DNA of 46,662 nt, taken from NCBI GenBank assembly GCA_000991135.1, contig LBST01000006.1, positions 1 through 46,662 of the forward strand, given 5' to 3'. The notes beneath the pieces were generated by a model that worked only from the letters and a program-made list of their open reading frames with translations, searched no databases and was not told where the DNA came from. A program made the position numbers and the translations under genes. Source of the DNA: Candidatus Roizmanbacteria bacterium GW2011_GWC1_37_12 (GTDB taxonomy: Bacteria; Patescibacteriota; Microgenomatia; UBA1406; GWC2-37-13). Shown here piece by piece: positions 313 to 39,086 of the stretch (the stretch's first letter is position 1; the number at the start of each line of letters is the position of its first letter).

Positions 313-1095
313 TTACTGGTTATATATAGTGTAGGCGCCAATTTTATCTCCGTCTGTCAAGGTAGTTTTTTTTACTTCCATTTTACTTCCGTATCCATAC
401 ATCGTCGCATCTTGATAACTTAATTCATACATGTCATCAAGCCCGATCCAATGGCCGAGTTCATGGGTAAGGATATTTTCGGCATCATAAGAATTTTGAT
501 AAGCACAGGTCATCGAATTGCTCCAGCTCCAAGGAAACTTATTATTCATAATGGTATCGACATCAACCACTAAATTATTATCAGGATAGTAACGGATATA
601 AGTGACCGCCAAAGCCGTACCAGAAGTCCTTCCCCAAGCAACGACATTTTGATAGTCTAAAGACTGACGATTGGTGGTTGAGTTAGTTCCCTTGGTAAAG
701 ATTATCCTATTGCCGGTAGCCTGCGACCAGCTTTCAAAGTCATTTTCTGCCATGATAGTCAAGTTGTCTTTTCCAACGGTCGAAGGAACACTGTCTGGGT
801 TCAAATTGTAGGTCCATTGAACTGGAAGTAACCAGTTTTCGGCTGCGACTTGGCTTGATGATTCTGGATCGGGCAGCTGACAAATCAGTGGATTAGGAGG
901 CGTTGGCTTACCTTTTTCTGGCTTTATCCGGTGGACAAAAACTCTCACCCTTACTCCAGGATGGTCAGGGTCATTATAAGTGCCTGCGACTTCCGGAATA
1001 TCAGAATTTTTTGCAAAAACAGGAAAGAAAGAACCAATAAGGATGAAGCAAAAAATAAAAAGAAAAACTCTTTTAATCATAATAAACTTTATCAA
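313..1095 (-). CDS. Secreted matrixin-like zinc metalloprotease
   Basis: A 260-residue exported protein. Residues 1-28 form a signal peptide with a basic start, a long hydrophobic core and a VFA cleavage-like site. The catalytic signature is HELGHWIGLDD at 211-221: His211, Glu212 and His215 with Asp221 in the third zinc-ligand position, the metzincin pattern HExxHxxGxxD. A Met-turn follows at Met232 (ATMYGYG), and the ending LTDGDKIGAYTIY resembles the matrixin C-terminal helix. It should therefore be a secreted zinc endopeptidase; the substrate is unknown. The start could be Met1 or Met6 (MIKRVF), both leaving a usable signal. It lies 17 bases downstream of the sortase gene and is probably the last gene of the surface-protein operon, so it may process surface proteins (inference). 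Confidence 0.85.
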   Translation of the reverse strand: MIKFIMIKRVFLFIFCFILIGSFFPVFAKNSDIPEVAGTYNDPDHPGVRVRVFVHRIKPEKGKPTPPNPLICQLPDPESSSQVAAENWLLPVQWTYNLNPDSVPSTVGKDNLTIMAENDFESWSQATGNRIIFTKGTNSTTNRQSLDYQNVVAWGRTSGTALAVTYIRYYPDNNLVVDVDTIMNNKFPWSWSNSMTCAYQNSYDAENILTHELGHWIGLDDMYELSYQDATMYGYGSKMEVKKTTLTDGDKIGAYTIYNQ

Positions 1096-1112: not shown

Positions 1113-1751
1113 CTATTTGTCAAGTGTCTTGATTTTCGCTTGAATAATCAGCCTTTTTAGGGTAGTTCCCGGCGGCCAACACGTCATCAGGGTCAAGACT
1201 GACCCTGACTTTGTCAAAGGATCTAAATGCGAAACATCCGAGGCTTCAACCATCTTTTTCTCGCTTACCTCATACACATATTTCTTTTTCTTGTAATACA
1301 TCTCTATCTTGTCTCCTTTTTCCAGCTTATTAAGTAAATAAAAAACAGAGTTATAGCGATTGGCGATGTACCAGTCGACACTGGAGTGGGCAAAGATAAA
1401 AGTGTTACCGGCGTGACCGGGAAAAGCAGTCCCTTTAGCATGGGCGACCCCCTTGGTTAAAGCATACTGATAATCTTTACTGTCATAAGGATCAACATTG
1501 GAAATAACTTTAGCGTTGGCATTAATCTTAGGAATAACAATTCCAAATTCTTCATCAATTGGCTTTATTGGCTTATTGGTTAAATTGGTGCGATTGGTCA
1601 AATTGGTTAAATTATATTTTGTCTCCTGCCAAAGAACTCGATAGAAGCTAAAGAAAAACAAAGCTAATCCTGTTAAAAAGAGAGTAAAACCGATTCTCAA
1701 AAAAATCTTAGACAGTTTGCTTCCTTTTTTTGATGAAGTAGTAGATGCCAT
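1113..1751 (-). CDS. Sortase family transpeptidase
   Basis: A 212-residue membrane-anchored sortase. There is a basic N-terminus, one transmembrane helix at about 18-38, a polar repeat linker (residues 47-60), then the catalytic beta-barrel. The expected active-site residues are all visible: His122 in FIFAHSS, Cys191 in TLMTCWPPGT, and Arg200 in LKRLI. Sortases cut LPxTG-type signals and transfer the protein to an amine acceptor at the cell surface. The first 44 bases overlap the 3' end of the giant surface-protein gene, which carries an LPATG signal and is the obvious substrate. The subclass cannot be fixed by eye; the compact form with a TLxTC motif would fit class D or E. Confidence 0.92.
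   Translation of the reverse strand: MASTTSSKKGSKLSKIFLRIGFTLFLTGLALFFFSFYRVLWQETKYNLTNLTNRTNLTNKPIKPIDEEFGIVIPKINANAKVISNVDPYDSKDYQYALTKGVAHAKGTAFPGHAGNTFIFAHSSVDWYIANRYNSVFYLLNKLEKGDKIEMYYKKKKYVYEVSEKKMVEASDVSHLDPLTKSGSVLTLMTCWPPGTTLKRLIIQAKIKTLDK
1578..1613 (-). repeat. Four 9-base in-frame repeats in the sortase linker
   Basis: Four consecutive 9-base units (AATTTAACC and close variants) encode Asn-Leu-Thr, Asn-Leu-Thr, Asn-Arg-Thr and Asn-Leu-Thr in the stalk between the transmembrane helix and the sortase domain. Because the unit length is a multiple of three, copy-number change would alter stalk length without breaking the frame. Confidence 0.75.
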
Positions 1752-4700
1752 AACCTAATACTGCTACACCGGCGAGAATTAGTAAAGTTAATTTCTTTTT
1801 CTTTGTAACAAAATCGACAACTCCCAAGACAGCTCCCTTTGCTTTATTGGTTTCAATCACCTCTGGTTTGGCTGTCGGAGTGGCTTCTTCGCCTTCCTTG
1901 ACTTCCTCGCCCAAGACTTCTCCGCCTCCTGTGCCTCCGCCAGGCAGCGTCACGCCCTCAACCGGAATTGCCCCACCTTCGGTTGTCATTGTTGATGTCG
2001 TCACAGTCACGGCTGAATCGCCGACCGGTCCAGAAGGATTGCCGGCGCTGTTGAAGGAACGGATCACATAATAATAGGTTTTATTGCAGTCTGGGACAGA
2101 CTCTGTGAATGAACCGTCTGTATTTGGACCTATAGTGATGTCTCCGACTCTGGTAGATCCGTCAAGGTTGAACGAGGTCGAATCCGATCGGTAGACCTCG
2201 ACTCTTGACGTCAATCCATCGTCAGCCGTCTTAAAGGTAATTTTATATTGACACGAAGAAATTTTCTCTTTTTTGTAGTTTGAAGGCGGTGTCGGGTCGC
2301 CTTGAGTGTTGTAACCCACCGAGATTATTCCTTCAGTTTCGCTTGTTGCTGTCTCTGAACCATTGCTGGCTGTGGCATAAAATTGGTAAGTACCGTTGGT
2401 ATTTACGAAGTTAGAAACACCTGTACAATCACCGCTGTTGCCGCCGGCCGAGACTGCGATGTCTGATCCAAACTGGCTATATCCACCGTCTGACGGGCCT
2501 TTTTTGAAACATTTGACGGTTATGGCGGCTGGCGACTCGGAAAGATCCATGACGGTAAAAGTTATATTAAAGTTATTATTTGAAGTCGGGCTTTTTGGTT
2601 GTTCCAAACGGATTATCAGATCTCCGGCAGCTGCTTCAGCTTTAACAGGATAGAATAAAAGACTTAAGGCTAAGATAAGACCGAATAAGGCTTTTTTTAC
2701 GAGGAATCTTTTTCTTTTAAGAATTAAACCTAGACCCATAAAAATTAAGCCCAAAATTGATAATACCGACGCCAATATTACCCAGATGACATTGCCCCCT
2801 GTTGCAGGAAGTGATGTCGAGGCTCCTAAGACTTCTCCGCCGATTTCGAAATTGCCGCCTTGCGTAAGGTTGGCATTGACGTTGACGCTCGAACCGACAA
2901 AGTTAGTCGTTACAAATCCTTCTGGTTGTGCCAAAGCTAAAACTCGGTTATCAAGGACGTCTTTCCCATATGCATAAGCCATATCTTTGTAAAGGCCAGG
3001 GTCAACCGAACTTACTTTGGCTGAATATTTGATGACTATTACATCGTCTGCATCCATGTCTCCCAGGTTATATGTTCCCGGAGAAGCATAATGAGGGTCG
3101 CCAACAATTGCTGTTAGATCGATTGAACCGTTTTTGATGATTGAGATAACGTTTTGGAAGCTGAAGCCATTTGGTAAAAGATCCTTGAGAACAACTCCCA
3201 AAACCTGGCTGTCTAGAGCTTTAACTGTAATAGTATATATAACGGTATCACCTAGACTTTTGTCTCCAGAAGCGTCATTAGACTTTGAGATCTGTAATTC
3301 TGGATTTACTGGCTGATTTCCGATGTAACAGGTAATTTCCTCACCCGCGCCTACTTCAAATCTAAGGCTGTTATTTTCTCCTGTTAATTCTCCATCGAGA
3401 CAAGAGATTTCTGTCTGAATATAACCTGGTTTAAGAGTTTCCGAAAGCTCATAACCGCCCGGTGTGATATCTTCGAACAACGCTTCTCCGTCGACGTTTG
3501 TTGTCTCATTTAGACTTCCTAAAGAGATGTCCCAACCCTCAAGAGTTGATTCGTCTTGGTCAAATTGACCATTCCCGTTGTCGTCTTGGTATTTGACTAC
3601 GGTAACATCAGCTTGTTCCTGGTTACCGAAGTCGCACCTGATACCGCCGCCATCAGTGCTATTTATTTCCCTTGAAGGAATACACGTATTAGGACCGTTG
3701 GGCAACTCTACCGTATGACACGCAGGGCTTGAGGTCTGGGTCCAACCATCCTGGGACTCTTCACAGACGCTATACGTGCCCGGGAACAAGTGTTCAAACC
3801 AATACCAGCCCAGTTCATCACCAGAGTCGGTGAACATAGATTTTTCCCCGTCATCCCATGTTTGATTATCATTTTCATCAATAAATATTCTCCATCCGCC
3901 CAAAAAGTCTTCGCCTTCGTCTCTGGCTCCGTTGCCGTCTAAATCGCTCCATTTTTGGCCATGGATAGCGCCGTTAGGGCTGTTGTAAAAAGTACAAGTA
4001 GTGGTTGAATCTTTTTCAACTTCCAATCCATCAATACTGTCGCTTCCGTCAAAATCTCCACTTTCATTATCACAGATCGCCTCAACGAGATCATAACCGT
4101 CTTGAGTCGTTTCTATAGCCGTATACTCTCCTGTATTAAGTGAAGAAAATGTGACCAAACCATTAGAACCAGTTGTATCGGCCGGCGCATCGGTCGTGTC
4201 TCCAGACCAGCCGTCAACGTCAAACTGCCAAGATTCTCTTTGTGTTTGATCAGTTTCAGTTCCCAAATCACCATCGGCATCAATAATTTTGTGAACAATA
4301 ATTGTTCCGGTATCACGAGTATTGGTTATTGTACAAGTAGTCTCCTGATCTAGATCTAAAACTATTACGTTTCCTTGGACTCCGGTATTATCACAGCTCC
4401 AGTTTCCAGCTGTATAATCTGAAGGACCTGATTCTAATAACCTATAACTTTTACCTGCATCAAGAGGATGGAAATCTGTTGAGTCACCACTGTCAGAGAA
4501 TCCGCAAGCTGGATCAGTGTTGCCAAAAGCACACAAAGTTCGAGCTCTTAATGTCCAATCACCTGGAGTTGAACTTCCTCCTTCGACTACCTTGACTAAT
4601 CTAAGAGTTGGAGCGATATCATCATTTGTTATCGTACAAGTCACCTCTTCATCTAAACCAAGTGTTAGCTTGTTGCCATTAAGAATTCCGTCATCACAGT

Positions 4701-7700
4701 TCCATGAACCAGCTGCATAGCCTGTTGGACCGGATTCAAATAGGGTATAGACAGTACCGGCTAAAAGAGGATGAAATTCAATTGAATCACCGGTATCTGA
4801 AAATCCACAGTCTGGATTGGTATCACCTACAGCACATAGTTTTCTAGCTCTTAGTGTCCAATTACTGGCAACTGCATCTCCACCATCATCATTAGTAACG
4901 TCTTTTACTAATTTCAAAGTCGGAGCAATATCATTGTTCGTTATTGTGCAGGTAGCTGATCCGCCGTTGGGAACGAAAATATCATCACAATTATCGTAAG
5001 TAGTTTCATAACCTGGCGCATCATCTTCAATGATTGTGTAATCTCCTGAATCGACTGTTTCTTCATTCTGTCCGTCGGCTTCAAAAAACACTGAAGGTCC
5101 GTCGTCGACTGTATAAGAAAAATCTTCATTATTTAAATCTCCGCCGTTGTCATTGATCAAAACTTTCACCACTACCAATCTTCCTGTCTGGTCGTCATTG
5201 GTTATCGTGCAGGTTACATCTTCATTAAGTCCTAAAGTCACTGTGCTATCAACCAAGTTTCCACCGTCACAGTTCCAAGACCCTTCTGAATATCCGGAAA
5301 CAGTTGATTCTGATAGATCATAACTAACATTTGCATAGATAGTTTCAAAACTGCCAGAACCACCGAGATTACTGAAATTTCGATCGTCATCTGGCGCATC
5401 AGCATCAGCCGTCAATGTCCAATCATCAGCTATAGCAGACCCACCATTATCAGTAACAACCTCTTTCACCAGCTTTAAAGTCGGAGCGATGTCGTCATTG
5501 GTAATCGTACAAGTGATATTTTCACCCTCATCAGCTGTCACATTACCAGCAAGAACATCTGGACACTCTGGATCACCCGTAATAAAAACAAATTGATATC
5601 CAAAAGAACCAGCTTCATCGACTTCATAAGCTGTATTTGACTCGACTGTTGTTGCGACACCACTTGTTACTGAGTTATTTCCAAGCGAAAGAATAAAGTC
5701 GTCTACTTGAGCATTTCCACCATCATCATTAATAACTTCTTTAATAAGAGTAACTGTTGGAGCAATATCATCATTTGTGATTGTACAAGTAACTGAACCT
5801 CCATTTGGAACAAAGATGTTGTCACAGTTGTCATATGTAGTTACATAACCTGTTTCTGAATCTTCGACAATTGTATAGTTTCCAGAATCAACTAAGGATT
5901 CATTTTGTCCGTCGGACTCGAAAAATACTGAAGATCCGTCATTAACTTTATATGAAAAGTCATCTTTAGTAGCATTTCCACCGTCATCATTGGTTAAAAC
6001 TTTGACCACTATTAATCTTCCTGTTTGGTCATCATTAGTGATCTCACAGGTTTTTGATTCCCCTGGGCCGAGAGTGACATTGCCTTGAGCATCACAATCG
6101 TTGCTCCAACTTGAGGCAGAATATCCTATTAATGTATCTTCGGAAACAACATAAGAGTCAGGATCAACATCGTGTGAACCCCAGGCTGTTTCGACTCCGT
6201 CAATATAAACGTTAAAGTTATCTTCGACTGCGGTTCCGCCATTATCATTGGGCAGGTGTTTAATCAAAGTTAAATTAGCCGTTAACTGACGGTTGGTTAT
6301 ATAAACATTATTTGTATTACCGCTCGTCACCGCTACTTGGCCATCAGGAGTTGATGCATCATCATCAGTAATGGAAACTAAAGCATAACCCGTTGGTAAA
6401 GTATCCTCAGTTACCGTATAGGTTCCCGGAGTTAATTCATCATAAGTGGCATTTGTTCCTTCGGCAACTGTCTTTGGGTCACCATCATTAAGAAGAGCAG
6501 TAAATGTCGTTGAATCAGATACCTCTGTGGTTCCGTCTGGTTTAACGACATTTTTATGAACAATAATAGTGGCATTTTCAAAGTTAACAAAATCGTTGTC
6601 TGTACTTTCTTCACCTGGTGACAAATCAACTTCAATTCCATCGCCTGTTGGGAAAATCTTTGTCCAACCGCCTAGAAGTTGCTCACGAAGCTGGTAAATA
6701 CCAGGAAGTAAGTTTTCGAAAGAGAAGAATCCATTGCTGTCGGTTGTATCTGATTCACCCGTATCTACAAACGCATCAGTAATCCATTTCCAAAGCTCTA
6801 TTACCCAACCTTGAAGTGGATTTTGGGTTCCATCTTCATATTTGTGACCGGAAATTGAACCTCTCTGTGTATTGGTGAATGTACAAGTAACCGTTTCACC
6901 TGCACCAACGTCGATACTCTCGGGTGTCTCTCCCTGATCACAAGTAGCTGAAGTAAGATCCCATCCTGTAGGAACGGTTTCGGAAACAGAGTAAGCACCT
7001 GGTGTTACCTCCTGGTTATTTGGAGTAGCTGAATCAGTCAAGCTAAAGTTAGCATATCCGGACCCTGAAGTAACAAAATCAAAACTCTGATTTGATCCCG
7101 AGGGATCTGTTACTTTGTCAACAATAATATGACCACTGTTAACAGTATTTAATACTGTACAGACAATGTCGTCATCTTCATCAACATCGACGTTTAATGG
7201 ACCAGCTCCACTTTGAGTTAAGGCTGCCCCACCATCAAAAGTTGTTAATCCTCTATCAACACATGAAATAGACGTCGCATAATCACTAAGATTTGTGCTT
7301 GGATCAGTACATGCTGTTTCACCGACTGTATGAGTCGCACCCGGATTTGCGCTTGTACCGGCACCAACTGTTACCTGACCAGTCGTTCCAGTATCACCCA
7401 CACAAGAAGCTTCATCGCTACCATTAACCTGTAAATTAAACCTTCCTGGATCGCTGCCTGGATTTAGATCTTTAACAACTTCTATATTCGCTTCAAAGGG
7501 GACTGTAATGGGGACTTCAAAACCATCTTGACAGTTACATTTTGAAGGAGATCCTGGTACAGCTTCTGAAGGAACAGAACAAGCAGTATTATCATTTTGT
7601 GCCCAGCTCGTACAATATGGAAGGTTCAGAAAATTATCACCATCAGGATCTTCACACTGAACAGTCATTGTAATAACTGGATTTACTGGAGCAGCGCTAC

Positions 7701-9099
7701 TTATATCACCACAGGCGTTTCCGTCAAAATTATAGTTAGGGGGCACCGGCGAATTAGCCAAAGTTGATACCGAACAAGAACCAGTTAAGGCGCTAGATTG
7801 ACCTTCCCCAGCAAAGTAAAGACCTATATTATATCGTTCTGTGGCTGTTGATTGAACATTCCAAGTTGCCGTAAAAGAAACTGTATCGCCTGGGAACTGA
7901 CAACCGTCATCTAGAATATTGACATCTGTAACATTGGCAATTGAAACATCGTTAGCAGTACAGTTTAGTCCAAAATCAACCGCGTCTTGAACACAACTAC
8001 CAATAACTGTTTGTACAGATGAAGGAGTTGAATACAAGATTGTATCACTATCTGCTTTTGTTTCTGAACCATGTTTTGTTTCAACGCAGACTTTACGTGT
8101 GTCATCACTTCCTACTTCTAAAACCCAAGATTTCGTAGCCGTATTTCCACCTAGATCAGATATCGCTTCCCAAGCAGTCCAAGAACCTGTGCCTAGGTTA
8201 CTACAGTTGTTTCCTGTTGTTGTGTCATTTGCATATCTTGCTTGAGTTGGGTCAGTGCTACCAGTCCATGAAATATTTAAAGTAACATTAAGTGAGTTTG
8301 TCGTAGCATCATCATTGTTTATTTTTACTTCCATTCCAGAATGATCTAAAAATGTAGTTGTGGCGACGATAAATCCTGAAGAATCATATAGTTCAACCGT
8401 GTAGTTTGGCCTGTAAGTACCATCAAGCTGATAACTATAGGTAAAACTACCGTTTTCATCAGTTGTTATCTGGTAGGAGACATCAACTGCTGGTTCGTCT
8501 GACGAATAGATCCTCAAAGTATATTGCGTATTCGGAGCAAAACCATATCCGGTAATAACAACTACTTCTGTTGGCGCGTAATCGGCTTTGTCTGTTGCTA
8601 GACAACCGTTTAACGAGTCTGCTCGGCAAGAATAAGATTCTACAACTGTCGTATCAACGTGGCCGTTCGGAGTCATTAAAGGTTCTGGGGTCGGGGAAGT
8701 CTGAACATCCATTCCTGGCGCAGGACTGGTCGCCTCCGCTGAAGTTTCAACCGAGTTTGACTCGGCTTCGGCGCCCGAAGGCGGAGAGGGGACAGAGGGC
8801 GCTTCGGTTGGCTCTAAAGTCGGTTCGACTGCCGGACTGGTTTCCTCAATAGGTGTCACCTCGACTGTTGGAGTAACGCTAACTGCTTCCGTCGGGGTAA
8901 CATCTTGAGTAGGGCTAACCTCAACAGTTGGTGTCGGCGTTGATTCATCCGGTGTCGGAGTAATTGTTTCTTCAGCAGGAGGAGGTGTGACGTCTTGAGC
9001 TTTGACAATAGATAAGGATACAAAAGGAGCTAAGTTATTAAAAACTAAGTTTACAGAAAGAATTATTGAGATGATTCTTTCCCCTAATTTGTTTTTCAT
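1708..9099 (-). CDS. Giant cell-surface repeat protein with internal LPATG signal
   Basis: A 2463-residue exported protein. In order: signal peptide (1-35, ending VKAQ); a Pro/Thr/Glu-rich stalk (about 36-150); an Ig-like region containing DKADYAPTEVVVITGYGF; a Cys-containing region; about thirteen prealbumin-fold (SpaA/Cna-B or SdrD-B-like) repeats at about 655-1931; a DUF11-like domain from about 1932; then LPATG at 2097-2101 followed by a hydrophobic helix and KRKR. This is a complete sortase signal, yet the frame continues for about 360 residues. The extension has a second signal-like segment (about 2135-2158, ending VKAEAAA), an FN3-like secreted part, and a final membrane helix with a KKRK tail. 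It heads an operon with the sortase and the metalloprotease. It is either a natural fusion of two surface proteins or two genes joined by a frame change in an A7 tract. The role is probably adhesion or a stalk (inference). Confidence 0.9.
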   Translation of the reverse strand: MKNKLGERIISIILSVNLVFNNLAPFVSLSIVKAQDVTPPPAEETITPTPDESTPTPTVEVSPTQDVTPTEAVSVTPTVEVTPIEETSPAVEPTLEPTEAPSVPSPPSGAEAESNSVETSAEATSPAPGMDVQTSPTPEPLMTPNGHVDTTVVESYSCRADSLNGCLATDKADYAPTEVVVITGYGFAPNTQYTLRIYSSDEPAVDVSYQITTDENGSFTYSYQLDGTYRPNYTVELYDSSGFIVATTTFLDHSGMEVKINNDDATTNSLNVTLNISWTGSTDPTQARYANDTTTGNNCSNLGTGSWTAWEAISDLGGNTATKSWVLEVGSDDTRKVCVETKHGSETKADSDTILYSTPSSVQTVIGSCVQDAVDFGLNCTANDVSIANVTDVNILDDGCQFPGDTVSFTATWNVQSTATERYNIGLYFAGEGQSSALTGSCSVSTLANSPVPPNYNFDGNACGDISSAAPVNPVITMTVQCEDPDGDNFLNLPYCTSWAQNDNTACSVPSEAVPGSPSKCNCQDGFEVPITVPFEANIEVVKDLNPGSDPGRFNLQVNGSDEASCVGDTGTTGQVTVGAGTSANPGATHTVGETACTDPSTNLSDYATSISCVDRGLTTFDGGAALTQSGAGPLNVDVDEDDDIVCTVLNTVNSGHIIVDKVTDPSGSNQSFDFVTSGSGYANFSLTDSATPNNQEVTPGAYSVSETVPTGWDLTSATCDQGETPESIDVGAGETVTCTFTNTQRGSISGHKYEDGTQNPLQGWVIELWKWITDAFVDTGESDTTDSNGFFSFENLLPGIYQLREQLLGGWTKIFPTGDGIEVDLSPGEESTDNDFVNFENATIIVHKNVVKPDGTTEVSDSTTFTALLNDGDPKTVAEGTNATYDELTPGTYTVTEDTLPTGYALVSITDDDASTPDGQVAVTSGNTNNVYITNRQLTANLTLIKHLPNDNGGTAVEDNFNVYIDGVETAWGSHDVDPDSYVVSEDTLIGYSASSWSNDCDAQGNVTLGPGESKTCEITNDDQTGRLIVVKVLTNDDGGNATKDDFSYKVNDGSSVFFESDGQNESLVDSGNYTIVEDSETGYVTTYDNCDNIFVPNGGSVTCTITNDDIAPTVTLIKEVINDDGGNAQVDDFILSLGNNSVTSGVATTVESNTAYEVDEAGSFGYQFVFITGDPECPDVLAGNVTADEGENITCTITNDDIAPTLKLVKEVVTDNGGSAIADDWTLTADADAPDDDRNFSNLGGSGSFETIYANVSYDLSESTVSGYSEGSWNCDGGNLVDSTVTLGLNEDVTCTITNDDQTGRLVVVKVLINDNGGDLNNEDFSYTVDDGPSVFFEADGQNEETVDSGDYTIIEDDAPGYETTYDNCDDIFVPNGGSATCTITNNDIAPTLKLVKDVTNDDGGDAVASNWTLRARKLCAVGDTNPDCGFSDTGDSIEFHPLLAGTVYTLFESGPTGYAAGSWNCDDGILNGNKLTLGLDEEVTCTITNDDIAPTLRLVKVVEGGSSTPGDWTLRARTLCAFGNTDPACGFSDSGDSTDFHPLDAGKSYRLLESGPSDYTAGNWSCDNTGVQGNVIVLDLDQETTCTITNTRDTGTIIVHKIIDADGDLGTETDQTQRESWQFDVDGWSGDTTDAPADTTGSNGLVTFSSLNTGEYTAIETTQDGYDLVEAICDNESGDFDGSDSIDGLEVEKDSTTTCTFYNSPNGAIHGQKWSDLDGNGARDEGEDFLGGWRIFIDENDNQTWDDGEKSMFTDSGDELGWYWFEHLFPGTYSVCEESQDGWTQTSSPACHTVELPNGPNTCIPSREINSTDGGGIRCDFGNQEQADVTVVKYQDDNGNGQFDQDESTLEGWDISLGSLNETTNVDGEALFEDITPGGYELSETLKPGYIQTEISCLDGELTGENNSLRFEVGAGEEITCYIGNQPVNPELQISKSNDASGDKSLGDTVIYTITVKALDSQVLGVVLKDLLPNGFSFQNVISIIKNGSIDLTAIVGDPHYASPGTYNLGDMDADDVIVIKYSAKVSSVDPGLYKDMAYAYGKDVLDNRVLALAQPEGFVTTNFVGSSVNVNANLTQGGNFEIGGEVLGASTSLPATGGNVIWVILASVLSILGLIFMGLGLILKRKRFLVKKALFGLILALSLLFYPVKAEAAAGDLIIRLEQPKSPTSNNNFNITFTVMDLSESPAAITVKCFKKGPSDGGYSQFGSDIAVSAGGNSGDCTGVSNFVNTNGTYQFYATASNGSETATSETEGIISVGYNTQGDPTPPSNYKKEKISSCQYKITFKTADDGLTSRVEVYRSDSTSFNLDGSTRVGDITIGPNTDGSFTESVPDCNKTYYYVIRSFNSAGNPSGPVGDSAVTVTTSTMTTEGGAIPVEGVTLPGGGTGGGEVLGEEVKEGEEATPTAKPEVIETNKAKGAVLGVVDFVTKKKKLTLLILAGVAVLGYGIYYFIKKRKQTV
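2692..2811 (-). other. Internal sortase signal followed by A7 tract and second signal-like segment
   Basis: The LPATG codons occupy 2797-2811. Downstream in the gene are a hydrophobic helix, the KRKR stop-transfer sequence and then an A7 homopolymer at 2692-2698, immediately before a new hydrophobic segment. Removing one A would stop the protein eight codons past the tract, and adding one would also give an early stop. Either change would produce a normal-length LPxTG protein. Confidence 0.8.
3307..7137 (-). repeat. Tandem prealbumin-fold domain array inside the giant surface protein
   Basis: Residues 655-1931 contain about thirteen units of roughly 80-110 residues. Most start with a beta-strand holding a lysine (for example LKLVKEV), often followed by NDNGG, carry an acidic pair near the middle (SES, VED, FES), and end with TCTITNDD. 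Lysine, glutamate and asparagine in these positions match the pattern of self-formed isopeptide bonds in SpaA/Cna-B domains. Several pairs of units (starting TGRLIVVKV and TGRLVVVKV) are very alike in protein but differ at many synonymous sites, so the duplication is not recent. Confidence 0.8.
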
Positions 9100-10368: not shown

Positions 10369-10941
10369 ATGCTGAAAAGCTTAAAAGCCGTTATAGATTT
10401 TGTCATGGATATCCTTGAGACGGTGGTTTTCATCGGATCGATGTTTATCGTTGTCTACCTTTTCATCCTTACGCCAAACCAAATCAAAGGCGCTTCGATG
10501 GAGCCGACTTTCCAATCAGGTGAATATATCTTGACAAGCCGTATTACCTATAAATTCAGAAAAATGGTTAGGGGAGACGTAGTTGTCTTCAAGTCGCCCA
10601 AAAACCCTGATATAGAATATATTAAAAGAGTCATCGGTCTCCCCGGCGATATCGTGACCATCACCGACGGCAGTGTCACCGTCAATAATAATTTGCTGGA
10701 GGAAAAATATATCTCTGCCAAAACCAATCTCTGGGAAGGCGGCTGTATTAAAGATGGAATTTCTTATACGATACCATTTGACGAAGTTTTTGTCATGGGG
10801 GATAACCGTCCCCGGTCGTCTGACTCAAGAGAGTTTTGCTCTGTCCCTGTACAAAGCCTGATCGGCCAAGTCTTTTATCGCTATTTTCCCGCAAACAAGG
10901 TCGGGAAGATCGCAAATCCCCTTCCCCGCTCTATTCGCTAA
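10369..10941 (+). CDS. lepB: Signal peptidase I
   Basis: A 190-residue type I signal peptidase, which removes signal peptides from Sec-exported proteins at the outer face of the membrane. One N-terminal helix (about 13-35) anchors it. The catalytic serine is Ser43 in KGASMEPTF and the general-base lysine is Lys86 in EYIKRVIGLPGD. The conserved box MGDNRPRSSDSR lies at 143-154. The length is normal for the short bacterial form. The start follows the promoter by 8 bases with no Shine-Dalgarno site. The 3' end overlaps the convergent ParB-like gene by 11 bases. The signal peptides of the giant surface protein and the protease are plausible substrates. Confidence 0.95.
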   Translation: MLKSLKAVIDFVMDILETVVFIGSMFIVVYLFILTPNQIKGASMEPTFQSGEYILTSRITYKFRKMVRGDVVVFKSPKNPDIEYIKRVIGLPGDIVTITDGSVTVNNNLLEEKYISAKTNLWEGGCIKDGISYTIPFDEVFVMGDNRPRSSDSREFCSVPVQSLIGQVFYRYFPANKVGKIANPLPRSIR

Positions 10942-18094: not shown

Positions 18095-19410
18095 TGAAAA
18101 ACCAGAATTCGGTTACATTGCCGGAGGACTTCTTAGCTAAATTTGCCAGCGATATTTTTGTTCCTTTAAAAAGAGGAGAATGCGTTTCCTGTATGTTTGC
18201 TGCTGGCGGTGGAAAAAGAACCATCTTTAACTATCTTCTTTCCAAAGAAACTATCTTAAAAAAGATTTTTAAAGAAATCTATAAAAAAACCTTATTTGTC
18301 TATATTGATCCAAATGAAATCTTAAATATTTCGACCGAAGCCTATCTTCACCTTATTCTTGAAAATCTAGTTTTTAAAATGAAACAAAAAAAGATTAAAA
18401 CTGTTACAGAAACGATTTCTAAAAATCCATTGGTTCTTATAAAAAAGAATCTTGAAAATCTCGTTCTAAAAGAATACCATATCATATTTATTCTTAATGA
18501 TTTTGAATTTACTCTTTCTTTACCTTTAAGTATTTATTTGAACTTAGAGTCGATTATGTCTATAGATAAGTCAAGAATAGTCTATCTATTTTTATCAACG
18601 ATTAATCTTTTTGATGAGACGGTGCTTCGAAATCTTCAAAATCTTAAACATGCTATATCGCGAAACGTCAGATTCTTTTCTCTATTAAATCAAGATGCGG
18701 CAAATTATTTAATCGACCGATTTCGCGAAAAAACTAAGACAAAAATCACCCATAGAGTAAAAGATGTCCTATTCGAATTATGCGGAGGTCACCCTCAGTT
18801 ATTAAAATACTCTTTTAATAATCTACGTCAGCAAGGTCAGGAATTTCTTGAAGATTATAGAAAATCAACTTCATACCTCATCAGTCACTATCAATTAAAT
18901 ATTGTTTGTGCCGATATTTGGAACTTTCTGTCCGAGAAAGAAAAAGAAGCGATTATTTCTGTTGTTACAACCGGAAATTTTTTACCTTCTCTAAAGGAAT
19001 CTGTTGACTATCTTATAAATTTGGGACTCATTAAAAAAATTACCGATCAAAAATATCAATTATTCGGAATCCTCTTTGAACAATTTATTAAAAATAAACT
19101 TCCGAAGCATAAGTTAATATTTAATAGTAATAATAAGAAACTTTATTATGGCGGACAAAGTTGTGAAGATAAGTTTACCTATCAAGAGTTTAAACTCCTT
19201 ACGTATTTTATCACTCATGAAAATGAATTGGTCACTCGAGATCAAGTTGCCGAGGCAATTTGGGGAAGGCATTATCTTGAAAAATATTCAGACTGGTCTA
19301 TCGATAAAAGTATCTCGATATTAAGAAAAAAACTTGATGCTTTGGGTTTTCGCTCAGAATATCTTACGACTTTAAAGAAACGTGGGTTCAGTTTTTCTAA
19401 TCCTGAATAA
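18094..19410 (+). CDS. ATPase with C-terminal OmpR/PhoB-type winged helix
   Basis: A 438-residue cytoplasmic regulator. The N-terminal half looks like a STAND/AAA ATPase: a P-loop-like AAGGGKRT (36-43), a Walker B-like IIFILNDFE (130-138), and a later GGHPQLLKYSFNNL that matches the sensor/lid region of such ATPases. The P-loop is degenerate, with GGGKRT in place of GxGKT/S. Residues about 345-438 form a Trans_reg_C winged helix (FTYQEFKLLTYFITHENELV, IWG, SIDKSISILRKKL, TTLKKRGFSF), the DNA-binding part of OmpR/PhoB proteins. There is no receiver domain. It would bind tandem direct repeats. The 3' end overlaps the convergent 1065-residue gene by 14 bases, and the pair shares repeat motifs. 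Confidence 0.75.
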   Translation: MKNQNSVTLPEDFLAKFASDIFVPLKRGECVSCMFAAGGGKRTIFNYLLSKETILKKIFKEIYKKTLFVYIDPNEILNISTEAYLHLILENLVFKMKQKKIKTVTETISKNPLVLIKKNLENLVLKEYHIIFILNDFEFTLSLPLSIYLNLESIMSIDKSRIVYLFLSTINLFDETVLRNLQNLKHAISRNVRFFSLLNQDAANYLIDRFREKTKTKITHRVKDVLFELCGGHPQLLKYSFNNLRQQGQEFLEDYRKSTSYLISHYQLNIVCADIWNFLSEKEKEAIISVVTTGNFLPSLKESVDYLINLGLIKKITDQKYQLFGILFEQFIKNKLPKHKLIFNSNNKKLYYGGQSCEDKFTYQEFKLLTYFITHENELVTRDQVAEAIWGRHYLEKYSDWSIDKSISILRKKLDALGFRSEYLTTLKKRGFSFSNPE

Positions 19411-22400
19411 GATTATGAATTTTCTCTGCAAGCGCTTTATTTATAGATCTAAAATCAATCGAGGCAAATCTCTCATCAAGTTTCCTTAATTTTCTTGCTA
19501 ATTCAGGATTTTTGGAATTATTGATCAATCTCCACTCTTCTTCACGACACCAAATCGGTCTAAGAAGCATAAAAGCTAATGCCGCATTGTCTTCTACCAA
19601 TTCAAACAAAAAGTCATAAAAAAGCCTTCTTCCGGGTATCCCATGATAATATCTTTTTTCAGGAGGATTATCCAGACTATTGACATATTTAAAAACTTTT
19701 GCTTTTAGTCGTTTTAATACATCAGGATTTTCTAAAAGTTTTCCGATTTCGGGAAACCAGCCTTTTTCAGCAAAAACTCCGAAAGGATATACATTTATGT
19801 TTGTGGCAAAGAGTTCTTTGTTCCCTTTGATAAAGGATTCACCTTCAGGAAGTACTCTAAGAATAGATGCTAAGTCGCCGTCAAAAGCTATCCCCAAGTC
19901 CGTCAATATTGAGATGCCGTTTTTCAGCCTTTGAGATCTATAACCTATAATATAGTCATTTTTCCTTGCTTCCTCTGCAATGGGTTGAATTACTTCGTAG
20001 GTAAAAAATTCCTGTGTTTCTTTAGCCAGTCTGTTTAATGTATCTATATCATCTAATTGCTCCTCTGTAATAGGTCTATCATCTAGACTTACTATCGGGT
20101 GCTTTCCGCCATAGCCCCAGTCTCGGAAATCATGCCTGAAAGCATACAAAGTTTGACTAAATGAACTGCTTAAAAATCGTCTTTTAGAAAACGGGTAGTA
20201 AGCCACAACAAAAGGATTGTCTAACCAGTATTGATTTAAAAGTCTGTGTTTTGATAAATTCTCATAACCTCGAAATGGAGTCATACCCATACCGGATATC
20301 AAGGTCCTTTTCTCGCCATTTTTATGAAAAGTGTACGGCTCCAATTTTAAGACAATGTTTTCTATTGATGCATCTTCCATCATATGGATCAGCAATGGAT
20401 TATCGGCTTTATATTTTCCTCCTCTAACCGGATTAAAAATCTGCATCCATGATCTGTTTTTTTTGCCTATGTTACCTTTTGTTCCTATATCCAAGTAGTT
20501 GAATTCATCGCGCCTGCTGCTGGTTTTCTTTTTTATGGAATACTCTTTTCCTGGAAATAATCTTTTTAAGTATCTTTCCATCTCATCAGGACCGGGGCCG
20601 TTCACAGCTACTATATCAATATCGCTGTTCGGGAGATAATTTTCAGCATTTTCATCCTTACCTAATTTCGTTAACCAGTCCCTGATGGAAGAAAAACGGT
20701 TTGCCTTAATATCCAGAAATTCCTTTCTTCTGAATCTGGTAGTCTTTATACCGGTAATATCTTCCGCTCTCCCTAAAACAATAAACATCGACATATCTGG
20801 AAACCTGTTCAAAAGTGCCAAAATAATTTTACCCCTATCAGTAATGTCCCACGAAGTTGATGCTTCCGGCGACTCTTTCAATCTATGGGGTGCGCTCAAG
20901 CCGAACATTTCTTCTGCCATATAGAATCTATAATCAAAATACTTCCCAATTCCTCTTTTGTCCATCAGTTTTTGAACTTTTAACCTGATAATCTTTTCAA
21001 GTCCAGGGATATTGCGTTCATTAGGTTGACTGGGTAAATTAAGCTCATCCATTACCTCTTGAAAACAATCGCTTATTACCTTTAACACCTCTGTTTCCCT
21101 TTTTTTATCCAGAAGCTGAATTAAATCTCTATACCCAGCTTTGTACAAATCTCTGGCATAAACCCTAAGCTCTTTAGGCAACCATTCAAAAGAGGGAAAT
21201 TCTTTAACTTCCGGCATTTCTACAGGCTCTTTTTTCAAAAATAAAGGAGTATTTATGTCTATCATTTCCAAAAGTTGATCAAGCAAACCAAATGCAGTTT
21301 TAAAAGAACTGACATTTCTTTTTTCATCTTGGACTAATAACTCTCTGATGTTCTTTAGGATAAATTTCTTTTCTATTCTGCCTTCTTTTGGAATTGTAGT
21401 ATACCGCCATCTTTTTAGCTGTCGCGGTACAGATTTTGGCTTTGAAATATCTATTTTTCTATCTCTTGTTAAATCAAGATCTATTCTAATAAGACTAAGA
21501 ATTTCATTCTCCGACTTAGTTAAGAGTAGGTTCAATAATTTATCTTTGTCGTTTTTAAATCGTTTTTCAAACAACGAGTAAATGTGATTTTCTGTTCCCT
21601 GCACCCACGGTGATCCGCTGAAAAAAAGTCTTAATACCATATGCATTAAGTAAACTTGTGCTATGAATTCGCCGTCAAAGATCATTTTGAGTTCCTTTTT
21701 TAATCCGCCGTTAACTTTTTTGTCAACAATCGCTAGTTTAACGACATTCACCGATATAAGATCGGTAATTTTTTTCCTTTGATTATCGGTTTCCGGCAAA
21801 TAGAAAGGGGTGCCTTTTAACAACGCATTAGTAACTCCCAAGAGACTCTGAACAACTAAGTTTATCTTTTCCTCAAAAGGCATGTTTTCATCGATCTTGA
21901 ATATCCGTATCAATTCGGTGAAATCTCTGACTGTGTATGATAACCAGTCAAACGATGCTGCCTCGTTTCCCTTTTTTAATAATTGACCAAGAAGCGTCCT
22001 CCCGGAAATTGCATCTTCGGTTATTTGACGAAGTTTTTCTATCTTAATACCAACTCTTTCATAATAATTTTGCGTTTCCGTATTAAAAACCATCTCTCTA
22101 AATCTATCATAATTCGGGTCACCTCTTAAGACACCAACCAACACCTCATCTTCGTGGTATTTTTTTCCTCCTATTTCTAACCTTTTGTGAAAAACGCCTT
22201 GGAGCGGTAAGGTGAAAAAATCATGCAGTCTTTCTACTTCTGAACTATATAGTATTGTTTCTTTAGGCGTCAGATCATATTCTTTTATTAACTCTTTGAA
22301 AAGAACGGGTTGTTTCCTACATAAATGAAGAAGAGTATTGGAAGATAATTCCATCACATCACGGATATGGTCACCCCTTGAAAAATCATATCTCAAAACT

Positions 22401-22594
22401 TTTTCGGCAATCGGACTGACGTTATTCATGCGAAATAATCTTTCCATTGACTTAAGTTTTAGGCTTTCTAAAGTAGGTAAAGCTTTTTCTAGAATAATAT
22501 TGCCTGCATTTTTAAGCTTTAAACCTGAAGCTGCAAAAGAAATTTTATTAGAGAGGTGACCGTGCCAATCCGATGACTTAAATAATTCAACCAT
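19397..22594 (-). CDS. Large protein of unknown function with nucleotidyltransferase-like DxD motif
   Basis: A 1065-residue soluble protein without signal peptide or membrane helices. I do not recognise the family. It is mostly helical to about residue 560. The middle contains LPNSDIDIVAVNG with Asp658 and Asp660, the Dx[DE] pattern of Pol-beta-type nucleotidyltransferases. A further acidic residue follows in FNYLDIGTKG as a possible third carboxylate. The usual GS motif just upstream is not evident, so the call is tentative. Past this lie unusual conserved-looking blocks (FRDWGYGGKHPIVSLDDRP, RYYHGIPGRRLFYDF). It has its own promoter with the repeat motif upstream, and it converges with the ATPase/winged-helix gene. 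No hint of a wall or ribosome role is visible. Confidence 0.6.
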   Translation of the reverse strand: MVELFKSSDWHGHLSNKISFAASGLKLKNAGNIILEKALPTLESLKLKSMERLFRMNNVSPIAEKVLRYDFSRGDHIRDVMELSSNTLLHLCRKQPVLFKELIKEYDLTPKETILYSSEVERLHDFFTLPLQGVFHKRLEIGGKKYHEDEVLVGVLRGDPNYDRFREMVFNTETQNYYERVGIKIEKLRQITEDAISGRTLLGQLLKKGNEAASFDWLSYTVRDFTELIRIFKIDENMPFEEKINLVVQSLLGVTNALLKGTPFYLPETDNQRKKITDLISVNVVKLAIVDKKVNGGLKKELKMIFDGEFIAQVYLMHMVLRLFFSGSPWVQGTENHIYSLFEKRFKNDKDKLLNLLLTKSENEILSLIRIDLDLTRDRKIDISKPKSVPRQLKRWRYTTIPKEGRIEKKFILKNIRELLVQDEKRNVSSFKTAFGLLDQLLEMIDINTPLFLKKEPVEMPEVKEFPSFEWLPKELRVYARDLYKAGYRDLIQLLDKKRETEVLKVISDCFQEVMDELNLPSQPNERNIPGLEKIIRLKVQKLMDKRGIGKYFDYRFYMAEEMFGLSAPHRLKESPEASTSWDITDRGKIILALLNRFPDMSMFIVLGRAEDITGIKTTRFRRKEFLDIKANRFSSIRDWLTKLGKDENAENYLPNSDIDIVAVNGPGPDEMERYLKRLFPGKEYSIKKKTSSRRDEFNYLDIGTKGNIGKKNRSWMQIFNPVRGGKYKADNPLLIHMMEDASIENIVLKLEPYTFHKNGEKRTLISGMGMTPFRGYENLSKHRLLNQYWLDNPFVVAYYPFSKRRFLSSSFSQTLYAFRHDFRDWGYGGKHPIVSLDDRPITEEQLDDIDTLNRLAKETQEFFTYEVIQPIAEEARKNDYIIGYRSQRLKNGISILTDLGIAFDGDLASILRVLPEGESFIKGNKELFATNINVYPFGVFAEKGWFPEIGKLLENPDVLKRLKAKVFKYVNSLDNPPEKRYYHGIPGRRLFYDFLFELVEDNAALAFMLLRPIWCREEEWRLINNSKNPELARKLRKLDERFASIDFRSINKALAEKIHNLIQD

Positions 22595-36827: not shown

Positions 36828-39086
36828 TTATATTACTATTACTTCTTCTTCCAACTCTATGTCGAATTTTTCTTTAACCTTATTCTTTATTATACCCAAC
36901 AGTTTAATAAGGTCTTTACTCTTGCCTTTGCCTTTGTTGATGATAAAATTGGCGTGAATTGGTGAGACAAAATAATCTCCAACAGCATAACCTTTTAATC
37001 CTACCTTATCAATTAAATATCCAGCAGATATTTTTCCTGGGTTTCTGAAAAAACAACCGGATGAAGCAATTCCAAACGGCTGGGTTTTCTTTCTATATAA
37101 AAGGGCCCAATCGGCTTTTTCTTGTAATATCTTAGCGTTGGATTTTTTGAGTTCAAAAATGCCTTCGAGGACGATCTCTTTGGTTTTTTGCAAGATAGAA
37201 TAGTCATAAGCAAATTTGAAATAATCTCTATTAACCTTTTTAACTTCTCCGCGATTGTTGACAAGATACGCATAGACTAAGCTGTCGCCAAAGTAGATCG
37301 GAGGTTTTGTCCATTTCGAATTCATGTAAATTGCTCCACCGACCGTCCCTGGCAAACCCTTATGATACTCAAATCCCTCCCACCCGGCAGCAATTGATTT
37401 TGCGACCAGCAAAGAAACCGGGTATCCTGAAGACACAGAAATGGTAATTTTGTTTTTGCTTTCTTTAAGAATCTTCAAATCTAAATAATTATTTTTTACT
37501 ATCAATCCTTCTATTTTTTCTTTTATGATTGCCAAATTACTTCCCCCGCCTAACATAAATAGAGGCAGTTTGTTTTTTAAACAATATTTTTTCGCCTCGA
37601 TTAAATCACCTCTTGTCCTCGCTTCCAAAAAATACTCCGCTTTTACTTGATTTCTTAAAGTTAGATAATGTGATAAGTCTTTGTTTTTTTCAATCCGTAA
37701 TCCGTAATTCGTTAATCCGTTAATTGTCTTGATAATTTTGTCTTTTAATTTATAAACATCCCCTGCCCCCATCGTAAAAATTACATCGCCTTTTTTTACA
37801 AATTTTTCCAACCGATTAATCAACTGTACGCTCGATTCTACATAATAAAGATTTTTTTTGCCTTTGACAATATCTTGTGAGTCGATCTTAAACTGACGAC
37901 TGTTTTCTCTTGCTGAAGCAAAAATTGGAAGGATAAATCCTATATCTGCTGATGATAAACCCTCTTTAAATTTATTTAACAAGAAGTTTGTTCTGGAATA
38001 AGTGTGAGGTTGGAAAATAATTATTATTCGTCTACCACCAAATCTATCGCGGGTTGATTTAATCGTTGCTTCGATTTCCGCTGGATGATGGGCATAGTCA
38101 TCGAAAAGATAGGTGTCATTATTTTTGTAAACTAATTCAAATCGCCTTTGGGCACCTTTAAAACCCAATAATGCTTTTTTAATTTTTCCCGCTGTAAAAC
38201 CTAACTGTAATAATTGAACGATAACTGCAGCTGCATTGGAAATGTTATGTTTACCAAACAAAGAAATTTTAAAACTGTCCGTTCCTTTAATACTAAATAC
38301 TGAACCATCTTTGTCTATTTTCCAATTAACTATTTGATAATCTGCTTTTTCTGAAAAACCATAAGTAATAATTCTCCTAGACTTTAGTGTATTAATAGAC
38401 TGTAGTATTTTCGTATCGTCAATATTCAAAATTAACTTTTTCTCACCAAAAAATTTGACAAACGCTTTTCTAGTTTCTTCAATGTTTTTGTAGACGTCTG
38501 GATGATCAAAATCAATATTAGTACAAATAATCCAGTCGGGGTTTAATTTGAAAAACTTTGGCGTTTTATCACTTGGTGGATTAATTCCATACTCATCCGC
38601 TTCGATGACAAAATATTTTTTTTCTTGGTAATCTGCTCCCTGATAATCAGTAAAAAAAGGAACACCAACAAAATAAGAAGGTTTGGCGTTAAGTTTATTC
38701 AACGCATAACTTAATAAAGAAGCAGTTGTTGTCTTTCCGTGACAGCCAGCAACAGCAATCTTGGTCTCAAATCCAAGCATCAATTCACCCAATAAACCAG
38801 CCTGGGAAATAACATTTACTTTTCTTTTCTTTGCCTTAATAATAAGAGGATTACTCAACCCTTGATGAGCCGCAGAGTAAACCATTAGATCGATATTTTT
38901 AGGAAGATCCTTAAAACCCACCTTCCAGGTAATCTTATTATCTTTAAGAAGCTTATCAGTAATAAATTCTTCTTCCACATCGCATCCTGTGACGTTTTTG
39001 CCCATTTTCTTCAATACCACTCCCAAATTCGCCATCGCCACACCCTTTATGCCGACAAAAAATATATTTTTAGCCTGTTTTAACAT
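36828..39086 (-). CDS. murCB: MurC-MurB fusion protein
   Basis: A 752-residue fusion of two murein enzymes. Residues 1-about 450 are UDP-MurNAc:L-alanine ligase: IKGVAMANLGVVL, ATP loop AGCHGKTTTASLL (about 111-123), ADEYGINPPS, IDFDHPDVYKN, and DDYAHHPAEIEATI. After a linker at about 450-470 comes UDP-enolpyruvyl-GlcNAc reductase: FMLGGGSNLAI near 513, YHKGLPGTVGGAIYMNS, and the active-site serine in ASSGCFFRNPG near 675. A C-terminal Glu-rich end (ELEEEVIVI) supplies the usual acidic residue. MurB acts just before MurC in the pathway, so the fusion would couple consecutive steps. The linker is encoded by a repeat-like sequence (37691-37727). Confidence 0.95.
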   Translation of the reverse strand: MLKQAKNIFFVGIKGVAMANLGVVLKKMGKNVTGCDVEEEFITDKLLKDNKITWKVGFKDLPKNIDLMVYSAAHQGLSNPLIIKAKKRKVNVISQAGLLGELMLGFETKIAVAGCHGKTTTASLLSYALNKLNAKPSYFVGVPFFTDYQGADYQEKKYFVIEADEYGINPPSDKTPKFFKLNPDWIICTNIDFDHPDVYKNIEETRKAFVKFFGEKKLILNIDDTKILQSINTLKSRRIITYGFSEKADYQIVNWKIDKDGSVFSIKGTDSFKISLFGKHNISNAAAVIVQLLQLGFTAGKIKKALLGFKGAQRRFELVYKNNDTYLFDDYAHHPAEIEATIKSTRDRFGGRRIIIIFQPHTYSRTNFLLNKFKEGLSSADIGFILPIFASARENSRQFKIDSQDIVKGKKNLYYVESSVQLINRLEKFVKKGDVIFTMGAGDVYKLKDKIIKTINGLTNYGLRIEKNKDLSHYLTLRNQVKAEYFLEARTRGDLIEAKKYCLKNKLPLFMLGGGSNLAIIKEKIEGLIVKNNYLDLKILKESKNKITISVSSGYPVSLLVAKSIAAGWEGFEYHKGLPGTVGGAIYMNSKWTKPPIYFGDSLVYAYLVNNRGEVKKVNRDYFKFAYDYSILQKTKEIVLEGIFELKKSNAKILQEKADWALLYRKKTQPFGIASSGCFFRNPGKISAGYLIDKVGLKGYAVGDYFVSPIHANFIINKGKGKSKDLIKLLGIIKNKVKEKFDIELEEEVIVI
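37691..37727 (-). repeat. Repeat-like linker sequence at the MurC-MurB junction
   Basis: Variants of AATCCGTAATCCGTAATTCG and GTTAATCCGTTAATTG encode NGLTNYGLRIEK, the link between the two enzyme domains. The periodic sequence resembles other AT-rich insertions in this window. Confidence 0.55.

Follow-up and report, generated by a model that had tools for sequence, protein, structure and literature searches.

The sorting signals recognized by sortase stand, by definition, at the C-terminal end of a surface protein, which is where annotation tools search for them. In the window, that is, the whole stretch of 46,662 nucleotides analysed here from the genome of a Candidatus Roizmanbacteria member of the Microgenomates (Patescibacteria), tiny bacteria that are uncultured, the first-pass annotation pointed to a full sortase signal in the middle of an open reading frame (ORF) and listed a polyprotein-like arrangement, a fused gene pair, slippage and a sequencing error as explanations. 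The question raised by this locus is what such a frame encodes and how its product would be processed. We consider the most probable answer, at roughly 0.72, to be a natural exported polyprotein in which a giant LPxTG surface adhesin (A) is fused to a second exported protein (B), and which sortase and signal peptidase would cut.

The A-B ORF occupies positions 1708..9099 of the minus strand and is a single frame of 2463 aa in the ORF list of the window; all of its parts given below lie on the same strand. It consists of a signal peptide, about 2060 aa of SpaA/SdrD_B-type beta domains, an internal sorting signal, an internal signal peptide, a tandem FN3-fold ectodomain and a C-terminal membrane helix. 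The A half (2812..9099) carries the N-terminal signal peptide and prealbumin-like repeats, with Pfam matches to PF19403 (10 stretches), PF17802, PF24514, PF17210 and PF20674. The sequence GEVLGASTS stands just ahead of the internal sortase motif LPATG (residues 2097–2101, positions 2797..2811), which is followed by the sorting-signal helix TM1 (about 23 aa, 2722..2790, predicted by AlphaFold2) and by the charged stop-transfer sequence KRKR (2707..2718). The full sortase signal is thus present, as annotated at first, in the order motif, hydrophobic helix and basic residues (residues 2097–2131), but it is not C-terminal: the frame runs on for 363 residues beyond LPATG.

Beyond KRKR come a linker with an A7 tract (2692..2698) and TM2 (2632..2703), identified from sequence and AlphaFold2 as an internal signal peptide with a signal peptidase I (SPase I) type site AEA/A, the predicted cleavage point lying between 2632 and 2631 in the context VKAEA/AAGD. 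This site, the one that would release the second half, was absent from the first-pass annotation. The B ectodomain (1996..2631, about 210 residues) contains, according to AlphaFold2 and fold search, two FN3-fold domains, in which Cys pairs are conserved, and a Thr/Ser/Gly-rich linker connects it to TM3, which ends in a KKRK tail and is without LPxTG (1711..1797, sequence and AlphaFold2). The AlphaFold2 model, computed for a 427-aa stretch with a 19-sequence alignment, places TM1 at residues 68–90, TM2 at 97–112 and the C-terminal helix at 399–426, with beta domains from TM2 to the C-terminal helix at pLDDT of about 65–94. The signal-like segment and membrane anchor annotated in the second half therefore hold, while the "FN3-like domain" becomes two domains. 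For B, no Pfam or NCBIfam family scored over its cut-off and no PDB sequence match was obtained; the fold search of the PDB with the B model returned tandem FN3 domains in general and gave no functional hint. Four Cys residues are invariant in the main clade of B sequences. B is a conserved Patescibacteria family that has no Pfam entry.

The comparison with relatives proposed in the first-pass annotation was made at three levels. Among 72 genomes of the family, nine relatives with B were found, in at least seven genera; the frame is unbroken in eight of them (914–2586 aa, with LPxTG just ahead of the second signal), and the ninth match lies at a contig edge. The class-wide search found B in 70 of 373 genomes, and the 64 class loci examined divide into 30 fused and 34 split. 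Outside the class, the phylum-wide search yielded 17 loci of the fused and 2 of the split type, from families f84 and f64, together with one broken or ambiguous case (L156). The continuous A-B ORF is thus present in 47 genomes of 32 genera, 30 in the class of the window's organism (itself included) and 17 outside, a recurrence far beyond chance. In 36 genomes (34 in the class, 2 outside), A and B are separate neighbouring genes, so that the two parts of the single ORF correspond to two distinct proteins in these relatives. The relatives with names include Roizmanbacteria, Levyibacteriota and Gottesman-, Shapiro-, Chisholm- and Collierbacteria MAGs.

Both predicted cutting sites are largely preserved at the junction of the fused ORFs. 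LPxTG is kept in 39 of the 47, a count of sequences that are not phylogenetically independent, and an SPase I type site (small residue, x, Ala) closes the internal signal sequence at the end of TM2 in 47 of 47, a sequence pattern likewise counted without regard to shared ancestry. Some rows for both sites were scored by eye where the window of the automated count missed them. In 32 fused ORFs, mean pairwise identity is 0.91 for the pentapeptide motif and only 0.24 for the spacer from the motif to B, whereas B itself reaches 0.41 and the stretch of A ahead of the motif 0.34. A diverged spacer between two kept sites is what would be expected of a discarded spacer, without being proof of it. Taken together, the retained LPxTG, the retained SPase I type site and the divergence between them suggest that the junction is still in use, which favours the polyprotein-like arrangement proposed at first.

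The reading that competes best is that the fused product stays one multi-pass membrane protein, in which LPATG and the AxA site are uncut relics of a two-gene ancestor. It draws on a divergent clade (L117–L132), whose fused ORFs have GAATG (4), LPAAG (3) or LPATG (1) at the motif. We regard it as unlikely, since LPxTG is present in 38 of the 39 other fused ORFs (21 of 22 in the main clade, MPATG being the exception, and all 17 outside the class) and the two sites flank diverged sequence, and since a sortase gene lies directly 3' of B on the same strand at every main-clade locus (48/48) and every locus outside the class (20/20). In the divergent clade, the sortase gene is found upstream of A, mostly by a few kb, or elsewhere; loss of sortase from the genomes with GAATG or LPAAG was considered and ruled out, as sortase genes are present in them. 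Judging from these motifs, sortase cutting in this clade may have been altered, possibly in specificity, or lost. Four members (L117, L118, L119, L129) read VLGAATG in place of LPxTG, though their genomes have sortases.

The preferred reading, processing of a polyprotein by two enzymes, would proceed as follows. Sec would export A from the N-terminal signal peptide until TM1 and KRKR halt transfer, and translocation would start again at TM2, which would serve as an internal signal peptide. Signal peptidase I would cut after AEA, at the conserved site, and free B, which TM3 would hold in the membrane. The downstream sortase would cut LPAT/G, where motif and enzyme are both conserved, and join A to a cell wall precursor. 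A hairpin of about 55 residues (TM1, linker, TM2) would be left over, and A and B would be produced at the same place in a constant 1:1 ratio, as gene overlap would likewise provide in the split relatives.

Genes for both enzymes are close at hand. The sortase gene (1113..1751, minus strand), which from its first ATG overlaps the end of the A-B ORF by 44 nt, matches PF04203 well above the Pfam gathering score (90.7 versus 26.6 bits) and has the motifs FAHS and TLMTCWPPGT..R, with the catalytic His, Cys and Arg in FAHS, TLMTC and KR. It is one of three PF04203 genes in the genome and the one directly downstream of A-B. PF10502 has a single match in the genome, the signal peptidase I gene (10369..10941, plus strand), which lies 1.3 kb from the A-B ORF and whose product would make the cut after TM2; L013 and L016 likewise have a gene similar to PF10502 signal peptidase in the vicinity of the locus. 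The window contains a cell-wall and division cluster (murC-murB, mraY, murD, ftsW, murG, ftsQ, ftsA, ftsZ and a PBP gene), and with these peptidoglycan genes lipid II should be available and is a plausible acceptor.

Beside the sortase gene lies a gene for a matrixin-like exported metalloprotease (313..1095, minus strand, PF00413), which among the loci scanned is found only in G000, G024, L021 and L128. It is rarely present at the locus and hence probably no core part, and its absence from most relatives scanned rules it out as a constant one. The LPXTG profile TIGR01167 is too weak on these genomes for counting sortase substrates. Elsewhere in the window, a 752-aa ORF (36828–39086, minus strand) matches MurC-like Mur ligase domains as well as the FAD-binding and C-terminal domains of MurB and is a MurC-MurB fusion, and a 1065-aa ORF (19397–22594, minus strand) has no Pfam match at 1e-5.

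The acceptor of A could also be sought in B itself. Class C sortases use lysines in a Y-x-K context in pilins, and 60 of 64 B sequences retain a Y-x-K. According to this alternative, sortase joins A to the lysine of B and not to peptidoglycan, the two-helix hairpin is spliced out, and A becomes linked to membrane-held B, which would resemble a basal pilin. The best PDB sequence matches of the sortase include class C pilus sortases, and class C is also its best NCBIfam class, but at 63.8 bits against a cut-off of 160 the sortase is far below this and every other class cut-off. Three fused relatives that have LPxTG and a sortase (L076, L078, L087) have Arg at the lysine position and could not accept A, and the peptidoglycan genes in the window make another acceptor plausible. 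Mainly because of these three relatives, we rate joining of A to B as slightly less likely again than an uncut protein. Its fullest form, a sortase-mediated protein splicing in which A is transferred onto the B lysine of the same or a neighbouring polyprotein and signal peptidase removes the hairpin, seems to us marginally more doubtful still; if true, one gene would yield a covalently joined surface fibre that is rooted in the membrane without peptidoglycan attachment.

Slippage on the A7 tract, which would give two products, one ending soon past KRKR, is very improbable. The tract reads A_AAA_AAA in the correct frame for slippage and both alternative frames meet stops shortly afterwards, but G024 and G016, the two closest relatives of the window, lack the tract and are nevertheless fused, which rules it out as a conserved device and runs against the slippage suggested by the first-pass annotation. 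An error of sequencing or assembly that joined two genes, for which the homopolymer at the joint and the existence of separate-gene relatives might speak, has a negligible probability and is refuted by the relatives, given continuous ORFs in 47 genomes, one of them with a B 76% identical to that of the window, and a third-base codon-position bias that persists on either side of the joint in the comparison of the window with its two nearest relatives.

The number of continuous ORFs, the missing A7 tract in the nearest relatives and the separate, typically overlapping genes in 36 genomes together indicate that A-B is a true in-frame fusion of an adjacent gene pair whose translation is coupled, so that the fused gene pair suspected at first is borne out by two overlapping or abutting genes in relatives. 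In the split relatives, the sorting signal is at the C-terminus of A, which ends a few residues past TM1 (e.g., ...KRRYHA*, ...LRRKYA*), and B has an ordinary N-terminal signal peptide. The ATG of B overlaps the last codons of A by exactly 8 nt in 20 of the 34 split pairs of the class, and in many split pairs a Shine-Dalgarno sequence GGAGG lies within the codons for the RR of A; as read from these sequences, the GGAGG stretch is stop-transfer code and ribosome-binding site at once. A one-base change in the overlap would fuse the two genes, as would loss of the stop codon where the frames agree (L094).

On the tree of B, the fused and split states change at least seven times by parsimony, and at least two of these changes are forced by strongly supported branches. 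A single fused clade was rejected by the AU test (p = 5.8e-30), which rules out a single origin of the fusion. The change between fused and overlapping genes has happened more than once, and fusion, fission or both have recurred.

It was also considered whether B of the fused ORFs is generally made from a conserved internal start. This is ruled out by three fused ORFs (L082, L088, L122) whose spacer contains no ATG, GTG or TTG, so that B in these genomes can come only from the fused chain. In L103, an in-frame ATG where TM2 begins is preceded, at a distance of four bases, by GGAGG, and L073 and L080 have a Shine-Dalgarno-like sequence, less clear than that of L103, before an in-frame ATG at the junction; in these three, B could have a separate start beside the fused protein. 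The benefit of the fusion is probably fixed stoichiometry and co-localisation, both already given by the tight overlap in the split relatives.

The contact of Patescibacteria with host cells is poorly understood, and the present data single out B as the companion of giant, sortase-anchored proteins at their surface. For one Microgenomates genome a sortase, though not its substrates, has been described (PMC7143001). Our literature search, in which subscription journals were thinly covered, yielded no account of LPXTG signals in internal positions or of Microgenomates LPXTG proteins, and no paper on engineered hybrids with an embedded sorting signal.

Among known systems, the Gram-positive LPXTG surface proteins resemble A in their signal peptide, large beta-rich repeats, LPATG, helix and basic residues with a sortase gene nearby, but in A-B the sorting signal is internal, and the same frame goes on to encode a second signal peptide and an exported membrane protein of about 300 aa. 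Like the A-B locus, sortase-assembled pilus operons encode SpaA-type domains, a sortase and a pair of exported subunits within a single operon, and the A-B sortase is nearest to class C by sequence; they differ in that the A-B sortase lies below every NCBIfam class cut-off, B is without LPxTG and the subunits are in one chain. Navarre and Schneewind reportedly constructed hybrids of surface proteins in which a sorting signal was placed between two domains and was cut by sortase in this embedded position; these hybrids were artificial and their downstream domain reportedly stayed in the cytoplasm, whereas A-B is natural and a new signal peptide follows.

We know of no natural polyprotein in which sortase and signal-peptidase cuts are combined; A-B would be a natural and widespread exported polyprotein with the two sites back to back. 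Exported polyproteins that signal peptidase cuts at an internal signal are known from the cytochrome b/c1 precursor of Bradyrhizobium (fbcH) and from the structural polyproteins of flaviviruses and alphaviruses. A-B is like these in having one chain with an internal signal at which signal peptidase would separate the halves, and it differs from them in the second cut, that by sortase.
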